From Pseudomonadales bacterium (GTDB lineage: Bacteria; Pseudomonadota; Gammaproteobacteria; Pseudomonadales; Ketobacteraceae), in NCBI GenBank assembly GCA_002708905.1, contig PAPM01000045.1:1-60778 (forward strand): 60,778 nt of DNA. The letters are read 5' to 3'. Below, in pieces: positions 3,487-10,912 of the stretch; position 1 is the first letter of the stretch; every line of letters starts with the position of its first letter. Both the position numbers and the translations under genes were made by a program. The notes under the pieces are model-generated. The model saw only the letters and a list, made by a program, of their open reading frames with translations. It made no database searches and had not been told where the DNA came from.

Positions 3487-3708
3487 ATGACCCCAGAAGC
3501 AACGAGTATCCCCTCCCAAGCTCCCATTAATGATGAGCGGCTCTATACCATTAACGAATCAAAGCAGTATATCCCTGTTTCTGATGTCACATTCTGGCGT
3601 TGGGAAAAGAAAGGCTTGATTCAGTTCGTCAAGATTGGTGCTTCCAAGTTTCTTCCTGGTAGCACGCTCCGAAAGCTGGTTACTGAAGGGGCGGGGGGTG
3701 CCGCCTAA
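3487..3708 (+). CDS. alpA: AlpA-like helix-turn-helix regulator
   Basis: A 73-aa protein of the AlpA / excisionase (MerR-like winged helix) family: LYTINESKQYIPVSDVTFWRWEKKGLIQFVKIGASKFLPGSTLRKLV has the layout of an HTH followed by a wing. AlpA proteins act as excisionase or as activator of satellite genes in P4-like elements and Gram-negative PICIs. The stop overlaps the next start (TAATG at 3706-3710), so it heads a tightly coupled operon with the primase. A hairpin covers its ribosome site. Which of the two AlpA roles applies cannot be told from sequence. Confidence 0.8.
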   Translation: MTPEATSIPSQAPINDERLYTINESKQYIPVSDVTFWRWEKKGLIQFVKIGASKFLPGSTLRKLVTEGAGGAA

Positions 3709-4691
3709 TGAGCCAGACAAAGAAAAGCCCCGTATCAGCGGCAACTGATCGAGGCTCCAAATCAAATCAAATTCAACGCCAGCACTATAACACCAACGAT
3801 GCACTAGACCAATTCCGTTCAGTGGTAACTATTGCCGGAATCTTGCTACCTGATCACCTCCCCACTGGTGAAATTATCCGTTGTGACGTACAAGGCAAGA
3901 AACCCGGCAATAAGGCCGCCAGCGTATGCCTGCACCTGGATGGATGGCCCGCCGGTTGGTTTGAAAATTTCACTGATGGGCTGGGGCCCAGAAAGTGGCG
4001 CTACTCTCCCGATGGCTCTACACCTCCCCCTATCGACTTTGATTACAGAGCCCATGAAGTAAAGCTGAAAGTCCAACGGGAACGCCTGGAAAAAGCCCGC
4101 CAACACAAACAGGAACAGGCCTCCCAGAAAGCCCGTTATCAATATGGTGGAGCAACTGACAACGTTAACCACCCCTACCTTACCCAAAAGCAGATCCAGC
4201 ACCACGGATGCCGCCAGAGCGGTGAAGTATTGCTGATCCCCATAATCAACACCGACCTGAAATTGGTGAACCTGCAGCGCATCTATCCCGATGGTAGCAA
4301 GCGCTTTTTACCGGGTGGACAGATCAAGGGCTGCTTTTCCCCAATAGGGCGGGTTAATCCATTGGGCGTCATATACGTGTGCGAAGGCTTCGCCACCGGG
4401 GCCAGCATTCACGAATCAACAGGCAACCCTGTCGCCTGTGCAATGAACGCCGGAAATCTGCTACCGGTAGCCTCCTACGTTCGCACTACGTACCCAAGGG
4501 CAACCATTGTGATCGCCGGTGACGATGACAAGAACACGCCCAACAACCCAGGACGGACAAAGGCGAATGAAACCGCCGCCGCCATTAATGGCCTGGTGAC
4601 TTTTCCGGAATTCTGCTGCCCGGATTGTTCCTGTACTGATTTTAATGACGTGGCGTTATGCCGCTCCCGCAATAACGGGGGTGGCTCATGA
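3708..4691 (+). CDS. Toprim-domain primase of the element
   Basis: A 327-aa protein of the phage/plasmid primase type. Residues about 110-160 are a charged helical linker. From about residue 215 a Toprim fold is visible: YVCEGFATGASIHESTG carries the conserved glutamate and IAGDDDKNTPNNPGRTKANE carries the DxD-type acidic cluster that bind metal. The N-terminus has no clear zinc finger, but the C-terminus ends in a Cys-rich CCPDCSCTD. It overlaps its neighbours on both sides (TAATG and ATGA), and precedes the DUF927 helicase-like gene. In P4 these activities are fused in the alpha protein; here they are split. Confidence 0.8.
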   Translation: MSQTKKSPVSAATDRGSKSNQIQRQHYNTNDALDQFRSVVTIAGILLPDHLPTGEIIRCDVQGKKPGNKAASVCLHLDGWPAGWFENFTDGLGPRKWRYSPDGSTPPPIDFDYRAHEVKLKVQRERLEKARQHKQEQASQKARYQYGGATDNVNHPYLTQKQIQHHGCRQSGEVLLIPIINTDLKLVNLQRIYPDGSKRFLPGGQIKGCFSPIGRVNPLGVIYVCEGFATGASIHESTGNPVACAMNAGNLLPVASYVRTTYPRATIVIAGDDDKNTPNNPGRTKANETAAAINGLVTFPEFCCPDCSCTDFNDVALCRSRNNGGGS

Positions 4692-6529
4692 CCCACATAT
4701 CCAACCAAGGAAAAACCAGTGTAACCGGTGAAACTGATGTAACCGCCACGAATGACGGGGGCTGCAGCGATTACACCGCGAAAAGTAACCGGGTAACCAA
4801 GGTAACCGGGGCCGATATTGTGCCCCCTGCAGTCATGCCTGACGTTGAAAGGCCTTGTTATTTCGTGCTGGAAAGCAACGCCAAAACCAAAAAGGGTGAA
4901 TACCGCAAAGCCGGTGTGTATTACCTGTCTTCCGATGTGGTGGACGGGGTGAAGGTGGATATTGATGAATGGTATTGCGGCCCCCTTTTGGTGGATGCCA
5001 TTACCCGCAACGGAGATCAAAACAGCGACTATGGCCGCCTGCTGAGATTCAAAAATCTTGATGGCCATTGGATCACATGGGCCATGCCAGCCTGGATGAT
5101 GGCAGGCCGCAACGATCCTATTCTGGCTGAACTGCTCAACCAAGGCTTGGAGATCAGCCACCACCACCGGGCCAAGGTTATACAGTACCTGGCCAGCCGA
5201 CACCCCAAGGAACGGGTTATAGCGGCCACATCCACTGGCTGGGTTAATCCAAGCCTGTTCATTATGCCCGGTAAAAACATTGGCGAAGGCAACGCCGTTT
5301 TTCAAAGCGACTCACCCGCCGCCGATGATTACGGGCAGAAAGGGACGCTCAAAGGCTGGCAGGCTTCATTGGGTAGATACTGCGAGGGAAACCCACTTCT
5401 GATGTTGGCTGTGTGCGCATCCCTGGCAGGGCCGTTGTTGTTTCATGTTCGCCGTAGCGGTGGCGGCATTAACTTCTATGGTAAAAGCAGCACCGGCAAA
5501 ACCTCTGCCATTGAAGCTGCCAGCGCCACATGGGGCAACCCGGAGACCTTCAAGAAAACGTGGCGGGCTACTTCGAACGGGCTGGAAGGCATAGCTGCCC
5601 AGCACAACGATACTACCCTGATTCTGGATGAGCTTGGCCAGAGCTCCCCGTTTGACGTGGGAAACACAGTTTACATGGTCGATCAAGGCACCGGAAAAAC
5701 TCGGGCTAATCGATCTGGAGCTACCCGAAAGGCAAAGCGCTGGCGTGTGGTGTTGTTATCAAGCGGTGAAATCAAACTCACTACCCACATGCAGGAAGCC
5801 GGGAAACGGGCAAAAGCAGGCCAAGAAATACGCCTATTAGACGTGGCCGCCAATCGCACCTACGGCGCATGGGATCACCTGCACGGGCTACCCGATGGCC
5901 GTACATTTTCCGATACCATCCAAAAAGCCGCCCGCCAACACTATGGGCATGCCGGACCAGTCTTCATTGAAAAACTGATCCAATCAGGTGAAGCCGATCA
6001 ACTGGACACTGCTCTCGCCGCCATTACCGAACAATTCCCCGCAACCACCGGGCAGGAATGCAGAGCCGCCGAACGCTTCGCATTGGCAGCCCTGGCGGGT
6101 GAACTGGCTATTGAATGGGAAATCTTGCCCACTGCCCCAGGCTCCGCCCTTGAGCACATCAAAAGCCTATACCTTGAATGGGCTGCAGAGCGTGGAACCG
6201 GTCCCGCTGAAGATACCCACATCATGCAATCAATCACTGAATTCGTAGAGCGCAATGGTGATGCGTTATTCAGTGAAGTGAACGACTTTGAAAAACCAGT
6301 GCGCGACCGCGCCGGATGGTGGAAAGACTGCGATCAAGGCAGGGTTTGGTACTTCACCAGTGAAGGCCTGAAGCGTGCCACCACCGGGCATGAAATCAAG
6401 CATGTCTTGGATGCCCTGGACTCAGCAGGTTGGATTGCAGAGAGAACCGCAGACGGTAAACGCCGCAAAGTGATGAAGATTGGCGGGCGAACATTAAGCC
6501 TTTACGCAATCAATGCGGGGGTGAACTAA
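4688..6529 (+). CDS. DUF927-domain replication ATPase/helicase-like protein
   Basis: A 613-aa protein of the DUF927 family, usually found beside a Toprim primase in satellites and plasmids. A P-loop, FYGKSSTGKTSAIEAA (around residues 262-277), and a Walker B strand, TTLILDELGQ, are clear. The C-terminal third (LEHIKSLYLEWAAERG onwards) looks like a wedge or winged-helix region. The N-terminal ~45 residues are low-complexity and rich in V-T pairs because the DNA there carries GTAACC repeats (4721-4807). It overlaps both neighbours by ATGA or TAATG. The likely job is unwinding at the element's origin; helicase activity is inferred from family and context. Confidence 0.8.
   Translation: MTHISNQGKTSVTGETDVTATNDGGCSDYTAKSNRVTKVTGADIVPPAVMPDVERPCYFVLESNAKTKKGEYRKAGVYYLSSDVVDGVKVDIDEWYCGPLLVDAITRNGDQNSDYGRLLRFKNLDGHWITWAMPAWMMAGRNDPILAELLNQGLEISHHHRAKVIQYLASRHPKERVIAATSTGWVNPSLFIMPGKNIGEGNAVFQSDSPAADDYGQKGTLKGWQASLGRYCEGNPLLMLAVCASLAGPLLFHVRRSGGGINFYGKSSTGKTSAIEAASATWGNPETFKKTWRATSNGLEGIAAQHNDTTLILDELGQSSPFDVGNTVYMVDQGTGKTRANRSGATRKAKRWRVVLLSSGEIKLTTHMQEAGKRAKAGQEIRLLDVAANRTYGAWDHLHGLPDGRTFSDTIQKAARQHYGHAGPVFIEKLIQSGEADQLDTALAAITEQFPATTGQECRAAERFALAALAGELAIEWEILPTAPGSALEHIKSLYLEWAAERGTGPAEDTHIMQSITEFVERNGDALFSEVNDFEKPVRDRAGWWKDCDQGRVWYFTSEGLKRATTGHEIKHVLDALDSAGWIAERTADGKRRKVMKIGGRTLSLYAINAGVN
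4721..4807 (+). repeat. GTAACC iteron-like repeats inside the DUF927 gene
   Basis: GTAACC occurs at 4721, 4739, 4785, 4793 and 4802. The last three are spaced 8 and 9 bases apart. They encode the V-T-rich N-terminus of the DUF927 protein. The reverse complement, GGTTAC, is the core of the repeats at 6565-6650 and 10606-10691. Confidence 0.6.
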
Positions 6530-6822
6530 TGGGCGCAATATCTGAAATTCTGGAACGCCTGAAAGTTACACGGGTTACCCACTGCAAAAAATTGGGTAAC
6601 CGTCTGCAGACCACGTACGGCGAGACTGTTACACGAGTTACACCAGTTACCCGCCCGGTTCGATTAGTGCTAAAGCTGCAGGTAGATGACCGCACCATTA
6701 CCGCCATTGACTGCACATCCAAAAGCCTGGATGAATCCCTGAAAAAGGAATTATACCGATGGGGACCCAGGCTGCAGGCGGTGTGGCACCAAGGACAAAA
6801 AATATATGGGGGTGAGTCATGA
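6529..6822 (+). CDS. Small protein with VTRVT repeats, unknown function
   Basis: A 97-aa protein that starts on the last base of the previous stop (TAATG at 6527-6531) and overlaps the next gene (ATGA). Residues about 12-16 (VTRVT) and 33-40 (VTRVTPVT) are direct products of 9-base-spaced GTTAC repeats in the DNA. The rest (VRLVLKLQVDDRTITAIDC, then a C-terminal amphipathic helix) looks like a small beta-alpha domain. I do not recognise the family. The odd N-terminus suggests that codon choice here is constrained by a DNA signal. Confidence 0.7.
   Translation: MGAISEILERLKVTRVTHCKKLGNRLQTTYGETVTRVTPVTRPVRLVLKLQVDDRTITAIDCTSKSLDESLKKELYRWGPRLQAVWHQGQKIYGGES
6565..6650 (+). repeat. GTTAC iteron-like repeats inside the 97-aa gene
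   Basis: GTTAC starts at 6565, 6574, 6628, 6637 and 6646, with one inverted copy (GTAAC) at 6596. Spacing is 9 bases within each run. The repeat phase matches three codons, giving V-T-R or V-T-P units in the protein. This spacing equals that of the non-coding array at 10606-10691. Confidence 0.65.
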
Positions 6823-7332: not shown

Positions 7333-7767
7333 ATGAACTTACCGAATAAAGCCGCCCGCAAGCATTTTGTTTTTGAATGCCTGAAAGATTCGGGCGTGAG
7401 TGAAGAAAAAGCACTGAGCGCTTCACGCCTGGTGCCAGATTGCATTCTGGTACATGCCATTGCACATGAAAAACCATTTGATGTGAGGGTGGTGGATACC
7501 GATCACCTGTTTTTCAAGTACGGCGACCATGAGCCCATTATCCTTGGTCACTTGCTGGATTCCGGCTATGTTCGCGCCTACAACTTTTGGTGTGAACTGG
7601 ACTTTATCAACATGACCGCCGAAGAAGCCGCCGAGTATGATTTTGATTGTGTGCTTGGTGATATTGATCGTAGCAAGTGGCAGTACGACTACGCTTGCCT
7701 TACCAATCCGGAATCAGTTTTGACTGTGAACGTAGCTTCCACCCTTCGAGAATTTGCGGGGGTGTAA
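7333..7767 (+). CDS. Unknown acidic protein preceding the capsid gene
   Basis: A 144-aa acidic, soluble protein with no recognised family. It is rich in aromatic and acidic residues in its second half (YNFWCELDFINMTAEEAAEYDFDC). It is separated from the upstream operon by 46 bases and from the capsid gene by 1 base, so it is probably co-translated with the latter. It may be a structural accessory or chaperone, but the sequence gives no proof. Confidence 0.65.
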   Translation: MNLPNKAARKHFVFECLKDSGVSEEKALSASRLVPDCILVHAIAHEKPFDVRVVDTDHLFFKYGDHEPIILGHLLDSGYVRAYNFWCELDFINMTAEEAAEYDFDCVLGDIDRSKWQYDYACLTNPESVLTVNVASTLREFAGV

Positions 7768-7768
7768 G

Positions 7769-9598
7769 GTGGGCGAAATATTACTATACGAAAGCATCAA
7801 GGCAGGAGACGCGGGACCGTTCATTGAAGGCTTAAATGCCATCGAGAAAGGCCAACCCGTTGTGTTACGGATCAACTCCAATGGCGGTGAAGTCTTTGCA
7901 GCCATGGCCATGTATAACGCTCTTGCAAAGCTGGACAATGTTACGATTTATATTGATGGCTTAGCCGCTTCAATGGCGACGGTGATAGCCATGTCGAGCA
8001 AAAGAGTCATTATGTCCAGCAATGCTTTGATGATGATTCATAAGCCTTGGGGAACACCCCAGGGCAATGCTAACGATCTGCTGGAATACGTTGAAATTCT
8101 CGATAAAGCAGAAGCCCAGATGGTCAAAGCATACGTAAGCAAAACGGGACTGCCTGAAAAGCAGATTAAAGAAATGCTGGCAAAGGAAACCTGGCTGGAT
8201 TCCGATGAAGCTCTGAAGCTGGGCTTTATAGATGAAATCAGCGAACCCCACCAGATAGCAGCAAGCATTGATCTTTCAATTTTCAACGAAGTGCCGGAAA
8301 AAATCACCGCAGTTTTCGAAGCCAACAAGCAACGAGTGACCGAGATCAAAAACTTGGTTGCATTCACAAACCTTCCCAGCGACTTCACGGCAAGCCTGAT
8401 CAATGATCCCAGCATTAACGTAGAAGCCGCACGCACAAAAATTTTGAACGAACTTGGAAAAGACACCACCCCTTGTGGTGGAGCTCCAATAATCGAGGTA
8501 ACAGGAATGGAACAGAACCAAAACTTTATCAACGATGCCCGTGACGCCCTGCTGATTCGTGGGGGTGTTGCAATCAAAGACATTTCCACCGGTGCCCGTG
8601 ACATGGCGAAGTATTCTATTGTGAATATCGCTGAACAGTATTTGAAACTGAACGGCACCAACACCCTGGGCCTCAGCAACGATCAGATTATTTCTCAGGC
8701 CTACAATATTCGCGCCAGCCACTCCACCAGCGACTTCCCCAGCTTGTTGGAGAATGTGGCCAGTAAGTCTATGCGGATTGCTTACATGGAAGAACCGGCT
8801 TCCCATATCGCTTGGACCGGTGAAGCTGAAGTTAAAGACTTCAAACAGAACAGTTTGGTTCAGATTTCTGAAGCCCCTGATTTGGAGCTGGTGTTAGAAA
8901 ATGGGGAATACAAACACGGCACCCTTGGCGATCAGGCCGAGAAATTCAGCATTCTGACTTATGGCAAAATGTTCAAGATCAGCCGCCAAGCTTTGATCAA
9001 TGATGATTTGAATGCCTTCACCAGACTGCCCCAAGCTTTTGGACAATCCGCTCGACGCAAAGAAGCGGATCTGGTTTACCAAGTGCTAACCAGTAACCCG
9101 GCTTTATCCGATGGCAAAGCACTGTTCCACACTGACCATAACAACATTGTTGCGGTAACTGGATCACTGACCATTGATGTATTGGGCCAAGCGCGGGCGA
9201 AGATGCGAAAACAGAAAGGCCCTGCAGGCCTTCAGACCTTGAACGTGGTGCCTAAATTCTTGATCGTACCGGCTGCCCTTGAAACCGTGGCAGAACAGCT
9301 GCTGGCCAGCCTGGTGGACCCAAGCAAGAACAACGACACCCCGAACATTGAATTTATCCGCAGCCTGACACTGGTGGTAGATAGCCGCTTGGATGAAGAC
9401 AGCGAAACCAAGTGTTATCTGGCAGCCAGCCCGGGACAGATCGACACTATCACCAAAGTCTATTTGATGGGTGAAGGCCGCCCCTTCATTGAAACCCAGC
9501 AAGGTTGGGAGGTCGATGGTACGTCACTGAAGTGCCGCATGGACTTTGCCGCTGTGCCGGTAGATTTCCGGGGCCTGGTGCAGGTGGATCTGTCTTAA
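7769..9598 (+). CDS. ClpP-like head protease fused to Mu gpT-like major capsid protein
   Basis: A 609-aa fusion. Residues 1-175 form a ClpP-type phage head-maturation protease: INSNGGEV oxyanion strand, nucleophile S68 in GLAASMA, H91 in MMIHKPWG, and the usual KETWLDSDEALKLGFID segment. About residues 180-245 form a helical linker like the scaffold of such fusions. From about residue 247 the sequence matches Mu gpT-like major head subunits (AWTGEAEVKDF, KADLVYQ-type helix, ALFHTDHNN). Start GTG 7769 was chosen because it directly follows the upstream stop and gives a normal ClpP N-terminus. An internal ATG at 8507 with GAGG upstream could give free capsid protein (363 aa). No portal or terminase accompanies it. 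Confidence 0.8.
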   Translation: MGEILLYESIKAGDAGPFIEGLNAIEKGQPVVLRINSNGGEVFAAMAMYNALAKLDNVTIYIDGLAASMATVIAMSSKRVIMSSNALMMIHKPWGTPQGNANDLLEYVEILDKAEAQMVKAYVSKTGLPEKQIKEMLAKETWLDSDEALKLGFIDEISEPHQIAASIDLSIFNEVPEKITAVFEANKQRVTEIKNLVAFTNLPSDFTASLINDPSINVEAARTKILNELGKDTTPCGGAPIIEVTGMEQNQNFINDARDALLIRGGVAIKDISTGARDMAKYSIVNIAEQYLKLNGTNTLGLSNDQIISQAYNIRASHSTSDFPSLLENVASKSMRIAYMEEPASHIAWTGEAEVKDFKQNSLVQISEAPDLELVLENGEYKHGTLGDQAEKFSILTYGKMFKISRQALINDDLNAFTRLPQAFGQSARRKEADLVYQVLTSNPALSDGKALFHTDHNNIVAVTGSLTIDVLGQARAKMRKQKGPAGLQTLNVVPKFLIVPAALETVAEQLLASLVDPSKNNDTPNIEFIRSLTLVVDSRLDEDSETKCYLAASPGQIDTITKVYLMGEGRPFIETQQGWEVDGTSLKCRMDFAAVPVDFRGLVQVDLS

Positions 9599-9608
9599 TG
9601 ATCTCCTA

Positions 9609-9800
9609 CTGAGTGGGCTGGTACAGGCATGCTGGCCCGTGTGCTACTCGGGGTTTGAGTTGGGTTTCTGGTTTCCCTCTTCGGTTGCTCAGACTGCACG
9701 GCACACACTTCTTTCTGCTGAGTGGGTCTACTGGCCCTCGTGTGTTACTCAGGGCTTGGCTGGGGTTGCTCTAGCTGCACGGCACACAATCCTTCCGCTT
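9609..9800 (+). repeat. Imperfect ~100-bp tandem duplication downstream of the capsid gene
   Basis: Two diverged copies begin with CTGAGTGGG at 9609 and 9718. They share CTGGCCC (9632/9731), a CGTGTG word and an identical 14-mer CTGCACGGCACACA (9694/9775). The 9599-10078 stretch has no gene I can firmly support. An open frame 9639-9962 (107 aa, GTG start) crosses the repeats, giving a repeated ARHT-containing peptide, but lacks family features. A 9-bp inverted repeat (CCTTCCAAG, 9849-9857 / 9876-9884) follows. Origin of the duplication is unknown; a packaging site is one possibility. Confidence 0.5.
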
Positions 9801-10032
9801 GATTGGCAATCGGGCATCTACCCCACCACCTGGCAGCGTAGGGCTGCCCCTTCCAAGCGGGAAACAAAAAAGGTACTTGGAAGGTCTCCGCCCACTGAGG
9901 GTATTTCGAACCCCGAACGCTCGCTATTTATGAAAAATTTCAGATTGCCGGTTGCCGTTTAGATGTCCAACCGATTATTCAGTTAAGCTATTGAATATAT
10001 TTGGTTTTTCTCAATCACACACGAACACACTT

Positions 10033-10078: not shown

Positions 10079-10549
10079 TCAGAAAACAGTTGGAAGTTTC
10101 ATAGAACCTTTATCTGTGCCCATGGGATTTATCGGATACTCAGCTTCACAATTCACACACTTGAAGTTGCCTGAAAAGGTTCTAGTGTCCTGCAGGAACT
10201 GGATTTGCTTTTTATTGAAACAATTAGGGCATGCAAAATGCGCTGGTTCCCCAATGTATTGGTAGACGATTGCGCCACCATCGGTTTTTACCAGCTGGTA
10301 GGGTTGCTTGGTGGTTTCCCACCCTTCAATTTCTTTTAGCTGATTCTTGAGCCTGTTATTTTCCTCCTGAAGAGTGAACAGCTCTTCTCTGGCTGAGAAC
10401 AAAGTGTCCTGAACCTCTCCCAACCTACCCATTATTTCTTGGATTAATGCTTTTGCATCGGCTTCTACCTTCAAGTCATACAACATCTTCAACGCATTCT
10501 TGCCAAGTTTCAGGCCTTCATAAGCTGCAGATATCGAAGCCATATCCAT
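10079..10549 (-). CDS. Coiled-coil plus zinc-ribbon protein, mobile-element cargo
   Basis: A 156-aa protein read against the rest of the element. The start is ATG 10549, with GAGGAA 6 bases upstream, in preference to TTG 10579. An N-terminal helical segment (ISAAYEGLKLGKNALKML) is followed by a coiled coil (LGEVQDTLFSAREELFTLQEENNRLKNQL in two parts), the motif GWETTKQPYQLV, and a zinc ribbon with CPNC and CVNC pairs. I recall this layout from a widespread family of unknown function in phages and islands. Its opposite orientation and position near the end suggest an accessory gene, possibly defence; that is inference. Confidence 0.7.
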   Translation of the reverse strand: MDMASISAAYEGLKLGKNALKMLYDLKVEADAKALIQEIMGRLGEVQDTLFSAREELFTLQEENNRLKNQLKEIEGWETTKQPYQLVKTDGGAIVYQYIGEPAHFACPNCFNKKQIQFLQDTRTFSGNFKCVNCEAEYPINPMGTDKGSMKLPTVF

Positions 10550-10605
10550 AGGTAATTCCTCAGTGGTCAAATTCTTCAAGATGTGATCAAAGCAGGTTTG
10601 AGGTG

Positions 10606-10691
10606 GTTACACAAGTTACCCGGTTACCTGCAGCCGGGTAACCTCTGCAGCCCTTGCGCAATAGGCCTGTTACACGGGTTACCCTGGTTAC
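10606..10691 (+). repeat. Non-coding GTTAC iteron array, candidate replication origin
   Basis: GTTAC starts at 10606, 10615, 10623, 10669, 10678 and 10687, and an inverted copy (GTAAC) at 10638. Runs are spaced 8-9 bases. GGTTACC at 10622 and GGTAACC at 10637 form an inverted pair around CTGCAG-containing DNA. The region lies between the coiled-coil gene and the right integration arm sites and has no supported gene. With a primase and helicase-like protein in the same element, an iteron-type origin is a reasonable inference. Confidence 0.6.
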
Positions 10692-10758: not shown

Positions 10759-10778
10759 GTTAACCCATTTGTTAACCC
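10759..10778 (+). promoter_or_regulatory. Candidate integrase arm sites, right end
   Basis: GTTAACCC occurs at 10759 and 10771, the same octamer and the same 12-bp spacing as the GTTGACCC/GTTAACCC pair at 453/465 near the left end. The pair lies 58 bp inside the right att repeat. Symmetric placement at both ends fits arm-type integrase binding. Confidence 0.5.
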
Positions 10779-10835
10779 AGGCAAGATTTTTGTATGTTTT
10801 GTGAGTGGGGTATGTTTGTAAGTTGTTGATTTGGC

Positions 10836-10881
10836 TGGTCGGAGTGAGAGGATTCGAACCTCCGACCCCTGCCTCCCGAAG
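10836..10881. repeat. Right attachment-site repeat within tRNA-Pro
   Basis: Identical over 46 bases to 255-300. It forms the 3' 46 bases of the intact tRNA-Pro gene. Identity ends at 10882, in the anticodon loop, the usual crossover region for tRNA-integrating elements. Confidence 0.9.
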
Positions 10882-10912
10882 GCAGTGCTCTACCAAGCTG
10901 AGCTACACTCCG
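10836..10912 (-). tRNA. tRNA-Pro (anticodon CGG)
   Basis: Read on the minus strand, a 77-base tRNA folds well: 7-bp acceptor CGGAGTG/CACTCCG, D arm GCTC/GAGC, anticodon stem CTGCC/GGCAG with loop TTCGGGA (anticodon CGG, proline codon CCG), T arm with TTCGAATCC, discriminator A and an encoded CCA. The 3' 46 bases are supplied by the integrated element, so integration leaves the gene functional. Confidence 0.95.

Follow-up and report, generated by a model that had tools for sequence, protein, structure and literature searches.

Spaced GTTAC iteron modules as candidate replication origin elements of a DUF927 satellite-like element

The window, a stretch of 60,778 nucleotides from a Pseudomonadales bacterium, contains an element bounded by a 46-base identical repeat (255-300 and 10836-10881), the right-hand copy of which lies within a tRNA-Pro gene (10836-10912, minus strand). 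On the plus strand of the element are found genes for a tyrosine integrase, identified by family match (542-1831), a Toprim primase (3708-4691; Pfam Toprim_3, PHROG DNA primase), a DUF927 helicase (4688-6529; Pfam DUF927, E 2.5e-75), here proposed as the initiator, and a fused ClpP-type protease/major capsid protein (7754-9598), the lone capsid gene of what looks like a satellite-like element. In the window's genome the helicase has no match but its own gene. It is followed by a small plus-strand ORF (6529-6822) that found no family match in Pfam, PHROG and NCBIfam-type scans. Besides further small ORFs, the element encodes a protein that matches Trans_reg_dom and an AlpA-like protein whose match is weak. 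The gene order and the attachment repeat are compatible with a PICI, a kind of element marked by an integrase, an AlpA-like gene and a primase/rep in this order, a specific attachment site and induction by a helper phage; the HTH_17 match lies below the Pfam cut-off, and the 12 ORFs scanned with Pfam gave no match to a partition, terminase or portal family. Five GTTAACCC/GTTGACCC words are present near the two ends of the element (at 453, 465, 513, 10759 and 10771); these words (453-520 and 10759-10778) are candidate integrase arm sites, distinct from the iterons described below.

The segment from 10606 to 10691 (module A) carries six direct GTTAC copies on the plus strand, starting at 10606, 10615, 10623, 10669, 10678 and 10687 (offsets 0, 9, 17, 63, 72 and 81), and one inverted copy on the minus strand at 10638 (offset 32). 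A recount thus confirmed the place and the copy numbers given in the original prediction, which had read this array as a candidate origin. The 8-9 base spacing assigned to the array holds within each triplet but not between the triplets, where 46 bases separate the start at 10623 from that at 10669 and the inverted copy falls in the gap. The stretch had also been described as gene-free and near the right end; it does lie between the start of the minus-strand ORF 10079-10579 and the tRNA-Pro gene, but three ORFs of 65-90 amino acids each overlap it. The density of the word is well above that of shuffled sequence: in comparison with 300 dinucleotide shuffles, the densest 90 bases of the element hold seven GTTAC/GTAAC copies against a shuffle maximum of three, and the element as a whole has 31 sites against 11.9 +/- 3.4 (maximum 21). 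The pattern GTTACN4GTTAC occurs seven times in the window, versus 0.04 expected, and the triple pattern GTTACN4GTTACN4GTTAC twice in the window's own genome, both times within the element.

The word and its spacing were said to recur at two other places, and these were located at 6565-6650 (module B) and 4721-4806 (module C). The three modules have a common layout of 86 bases, with direct copies at 0, 9, 17 and 63, 72, 81 and an inverted copy at 31-32, modules B and C being degenerate at one or two of these positions. Module B, on the plus strand, has GTTAC at 0, 9, 63, 72 and 81 and the inverted copy at 31; it starts 35 bases past the DUF927 stop codon, within the ORF at 6529-6822. Module C has the opposite orientation (minus strand), with GTTAC at 0, 9, 17, 63 and 81 counted from 4806 and with degenerate copies at 72 and at the inverted position, and covers codons 12-40 at the 5' end of the DUF927 gene. 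It was identified by eye through the shared offsets; the word-agnostic detector described below does not call it. The same detector found no module in the 48.8 kb of host DNA of the window. The spacers of the window's modules are GC-rich (37-39% AT, versus 50% for the element), and an AT-rich 50-base stretch (70%) is found at 10783, outside module A. All three modules have CTGCAG after the inverted copy. As a general module feature this sequence was rejected, since among the other modules compared it stands at that place only in L186.

A relative of the DUF927 helicase (E <= 1e-20) is encoded by 22 of the 274 genomes of the class and the triple GTTAC pattern is present in nine, the window's own genome being included in both counts. 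In three of the eight other genomes with the pattern (G009, G074 and G149) it lies within about 1 kb of a DUF927 gene, and in five it does not; in one of these five, G101, it is a plain 9-base tandem repeat. At the contig end of locus L077 (18865-18977), a plain 9-base tandem repeat of about 13 copies, GTTACTGAG, matches the triple pattern and not the module layout. In relatives of the element, the same layout is spelled with other words. A detector indifferent to the word, and strict in demanding the same 5-mer in two pairs spaced by 8-11 bases together with an inverted copy, was positive at 72 of 103 loci, P4 among them, as compared with 5 of 515 shuffles, and at 24 of the 44 loci from named genomes against 3 of 220. 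In the interval from 700 bases ahead of the DUF927 gene to 1500 past it, a module was present at 43 of the 94 non-redundant loci, compared to none of 94 shuffled regions, and the detector gave no call at the other 51. This interval holds 0.162 modules per kb, and the sequence more than 2 kb from the gene 0.020 per kb. The original prediction was to fall if the arrays were not conserved in relatives sharing the replication genes; it survives at these 43 loci in the layout and the position, not in the word.

The 119 distinct modules, of which a few are noise, contain 325 steps from one copy to the next; 250 of these steps measure 9 bases, the detector itself seeding only on spacings of 8-11. The outer distances fall at 80-84 (64 modules), 92-96 (15), 101-107 (23), 113-118 (6) and 71-74 (9), with two modules elsewhere. 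The inverted copy stands mostly at 31-37 and in one orientation, and at 42-50 in some modules, that of P4 ori1 included. A Rayleigh test for helical phasing gave R = 0.70 at 10.5 bases, the maximum among six periods tried being 0.82 at 11.5; because the loci are related and the 80-84 class is dominant, the p-values are too optimistic, and only clustering is claimed. By eye, the sequence from the inverted copy to the iterons on its right seemed to have a conserved core; this idea was discarded in view of the low column information in the 81-84 class, a test from which ten loci were left out (one L181 module being kept).

Modules that belong to one element tend to use the same word. This was the case in 26 of 31 pairs, versus a mean of 4.1 and a maximum of 11 in 2000 shuffles, the count being confined to modules with at least four copies of one G[TA]NNC word, and hence dependent on word shape, with seven noisy loci (L058, L179, L073, L190, L194, L109 and L106) and ten redundant ones left out. 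Duplication could be another source of this sharing. The exceptions are L054, L180 and L112. At L180 (11806-13622) and L054 (6673-7573), which come from Kushneria and a relative of the window's order, two or three modules that differ in their word (GTACC, GTTGC, GTTCC) lie within a few kb, possibly as stacked replicons or as word turnover in progress. In five relatives (L052/L172, L171, L175, L163 and L185), the helicase gene is flanked by two modules of opposite orientation, the first within its 5' end and the second just past its stop codon. A change of word is accompanied by a change in the peptide encoded over the 5' module (VT.VT, HGTHGT, VSRVS, RDTRDT); since the peptide varies with the word, the constraint appears to be on the DNA.

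Among the small plasmids pTAO100, pHS87b and pMNOD05, clear modules were called only on pMNOD05, a circular molecule of 20 kb with a pair of them, one beside its DUF927 gene. On pHS87b and vB_Pae_U10 (helicases 37% identical), the detector gave no call with an inverted copy; on pTAO100, which has a RepM gene, its single call was weak and lay 0.65 kb away from the gene for the helicase. At L205, two face-to-face GTTAC modules (9641-9828) lie between the DUF927 gene and an ogr-like gene, and among 5426 complete E. coli genomes, 452 have a DNA match to the query region of this family. In genome G074, a module with the GTTAC layout (L079:10708-10818) belongs to an element with a DUF3987 helicase, a separate Toprim gene and ClpP/capsid genes; it lies about 2 kb from the helicase gene and adjoins an integrase gene. 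The layout was thus seen with three helicase families, DUF927, D5 (two loci) and DUF3987 (one locus), which may reflect either convergence or a binding domain of shared ancestry. In the literature, mostly outside subscription journals and the original P4 and SaPI origin papers, no description of this spacing across helicase families was found.

Profile and fold searches with the DUF927 helicase of the element led to SCCmec Cch (5dgk) and SaPIbov1 Rep (8tch) as the closest solved folds, the match spanning most of the protein; the match to NCBIfam SCCmet_Cch1 scores 69 bits, far below the cut-off of 700. A structure model built from 62 sequences, which replaced a single-sequence model with a pLDDT of 38, has a mean pLDDT of 89. 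Residues 1-45 have pLDDT values below 50 and are predicted to be disordered, which suggests that module C is written in a tail that the fold does not need. Passages of PMC7581432 describe Cch as containing DUF927 and being related to SaPIbov1 Rep, and the C-terminal domain of SaPI Rep as recognising iterons directly downstream of its own gene. Profile comparison of the C-terminal domain of the element's helicase with the C-termini of the P4 and EcCICFT073 proteins detected no relation, and a PDB sequence search with this domain alone returned no convincing match. Covariation between iteron word and protein sequence (57 proteins labelled by hand, 48 after removal of redundancy, 474 columns) showed no enrichment of C-terminal columns (p = 0.43), although the single top column, residue 595, falls within the final strands predicted for the C-terminal domain. 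From the modelled fold, the best reading is that the initiator would be SaPIbov1-Rep/Cch-like rather than similar to P4 alpha.

These features can be set beside those of characterised origins. Published PICI and SaPI origins sit just 3' of the helicase gene in the passages of PMC6092414 and PMC7581432 that deal with them, and an AT-rich stretch between two iteron sets is described for PICI origins. The iteron sets of module B likewise lie immediately 3' of the helicase gene, whereas its two sets are separated by GC-rich rather than AT-rich sequence. With SaPIbov1 Rep/Cch the element has in common the DUF927 helicase fold and the reported placement of iterons downstream of the rep gene, a comparison of position and not of spacing; unlike SaPIbov1 and SCCmec Cch, it resides in a Gram-negative host, has a separate Toprim primase and carries three modules with a GTTAC word, of which B and C fall within coding sequence. 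EcCICFT073 was located in E. coli CFT073 through its genes for an integrase, a D5-type primase, capsid and head decoration. Here the detector called modules at L207:8513-8615 and 8641-8734, with the word GGTAGACA, right past the replication gene ending at 8496. In the relevant passages of PMC6092414, a rep-ori segment of EcCICFT073 gives colonies and a rep mutant none, and a figure legend reports a significant loss upon deletion of the ori, in a region that contains iterons. The likeness between this island and the element, compared by region, lies in iteron sets that directly follow the replication gene on its 3' side; the initiators differ, D5_N/DUF5906/Pox_D5 in EcCICFT073 versus the DUF927 helicase in the element.

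In phage P4, the detector called ori1 and did not call crr, which is annotated in the record. The P4 iterons resemble those of the element in being about 9-10 bases apart, in two groups and with an inverted copy, and in occupying separate places, one by the 3' end of the initiator gene and one distant, as modules A, B and C do in the element. However, P4 alpha is a single protein combining Toprim with D5_N/DUF5906/Pox_D5, whereas the element encodes a Toprim protein followed by a separate DUF927 helicase, and the P4 word is GGTGAACA-like, not GTTAC. The suggestion of a plausible P4-type origin at module A therefore holds as to the kind of origin, one built of iterons, but not as to the initiator, which is not alpha-like, nor as to the place, the usual position being that of module B.

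Could the modules serve another purpose? They might act as operator sites for a transcription regulator that the element encodes; module A, which precedes the minus-strand gene 10079-10579 by 27 bases, would then control that gene, and the AlpA-like and Trans_reg_dom-matching proteins provide possible regulators. We consider this improbable, as modules B and C lie within genes, away from obvious promoters, and the modules of relatives adjoin the helicase gene and sit at a published origin. Autoregulation by the initiator from its module sites could be a second role. Direct repeats are typical of integrase arm sites and of partition sites, and module A is only 145 bases from the attachment site, so that a function in integration, partition or packaging, rather than in replication, might be envisaged. 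That function seems quite unlikely, given that the candidate arm words GTTAACCC/GTTGACCC differ from GTTAC, that modules in relatives adjoin the helicase gene and that the Pfam scan of the 12 ORFs found neither a partition nor a terminase family. Finally, GTT ACN and GTA ACN both encode Val-Thr and modules B and C are in frame, but the idea that the repeats are a by-product of Val-Thr protein repeats, module A being a decayed copy, is hardly credible when module A is the most complete copy and lies outside any convincing gene, when relatives with other words keep the layout and encode other peptides, and when the tail over module C is predicted to be disordered.

We favor the view, to which we assign a probability of about 0.82, that the modules are initiator-bound iteron origin elements of a DUF927 satellite-like element. 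By analogy with relatives and with the published PICI and SaPI origins, which place the origin just 3' of the helicase gene, module B would be the canonical copy and the likeliest start site, and module A a distal extra copy, in an arrangement comparable to the split ori1/crr of P4; that module A is itself a start site is somewhat doubtful. The element integrated at the tRNA gene would excise and circularise; the C-terminal domain of the DUF927 helicase would bind the iterons with their 9-base spacing, in the manner published for SaPI Rep; the helicase would assemble over both iteron groups of a module and melt the DNA, and the neighbouring Toprim protein would then prime. Module C would represent an oppositely oriented copy written into the disordered protein tail. 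Such an origin is known in kind; what is new is the GTTAC word, the three-copy plan and the overprinting of coding sequence.

More tentatively, and with slightly less than even confidence, we propose that a single origin architecture (a 9-base step between iterons, an inverted copy that usually stands at 31-37, and outer distances near 82, 94 and 105 bases, which differ by about one helical turn) may be common to replicons with unrelated helicases (DUF927, D5-type and DUF3987). Only the short variable part of the iteron (TGTNNC-like) would differ between lineages, as an address that stops co-resident satellites from firing each other's origins, and in one branch the module would overprint both a dispensable tail of the helicase and the gene that follows. 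The layout offers a word-independent signature for the origins of DUF927 satellites, by which origins may be proposed from DNA alone in many bacteria. It also raises the questions of which initiator residues recognise the variable bases and of whether satellites with different words can replicate independently of one another within a single cell. The use of the same layout by three helicase families raises the further question of which of the two, the DNA module or the binding domain, passes from one replicon to another.
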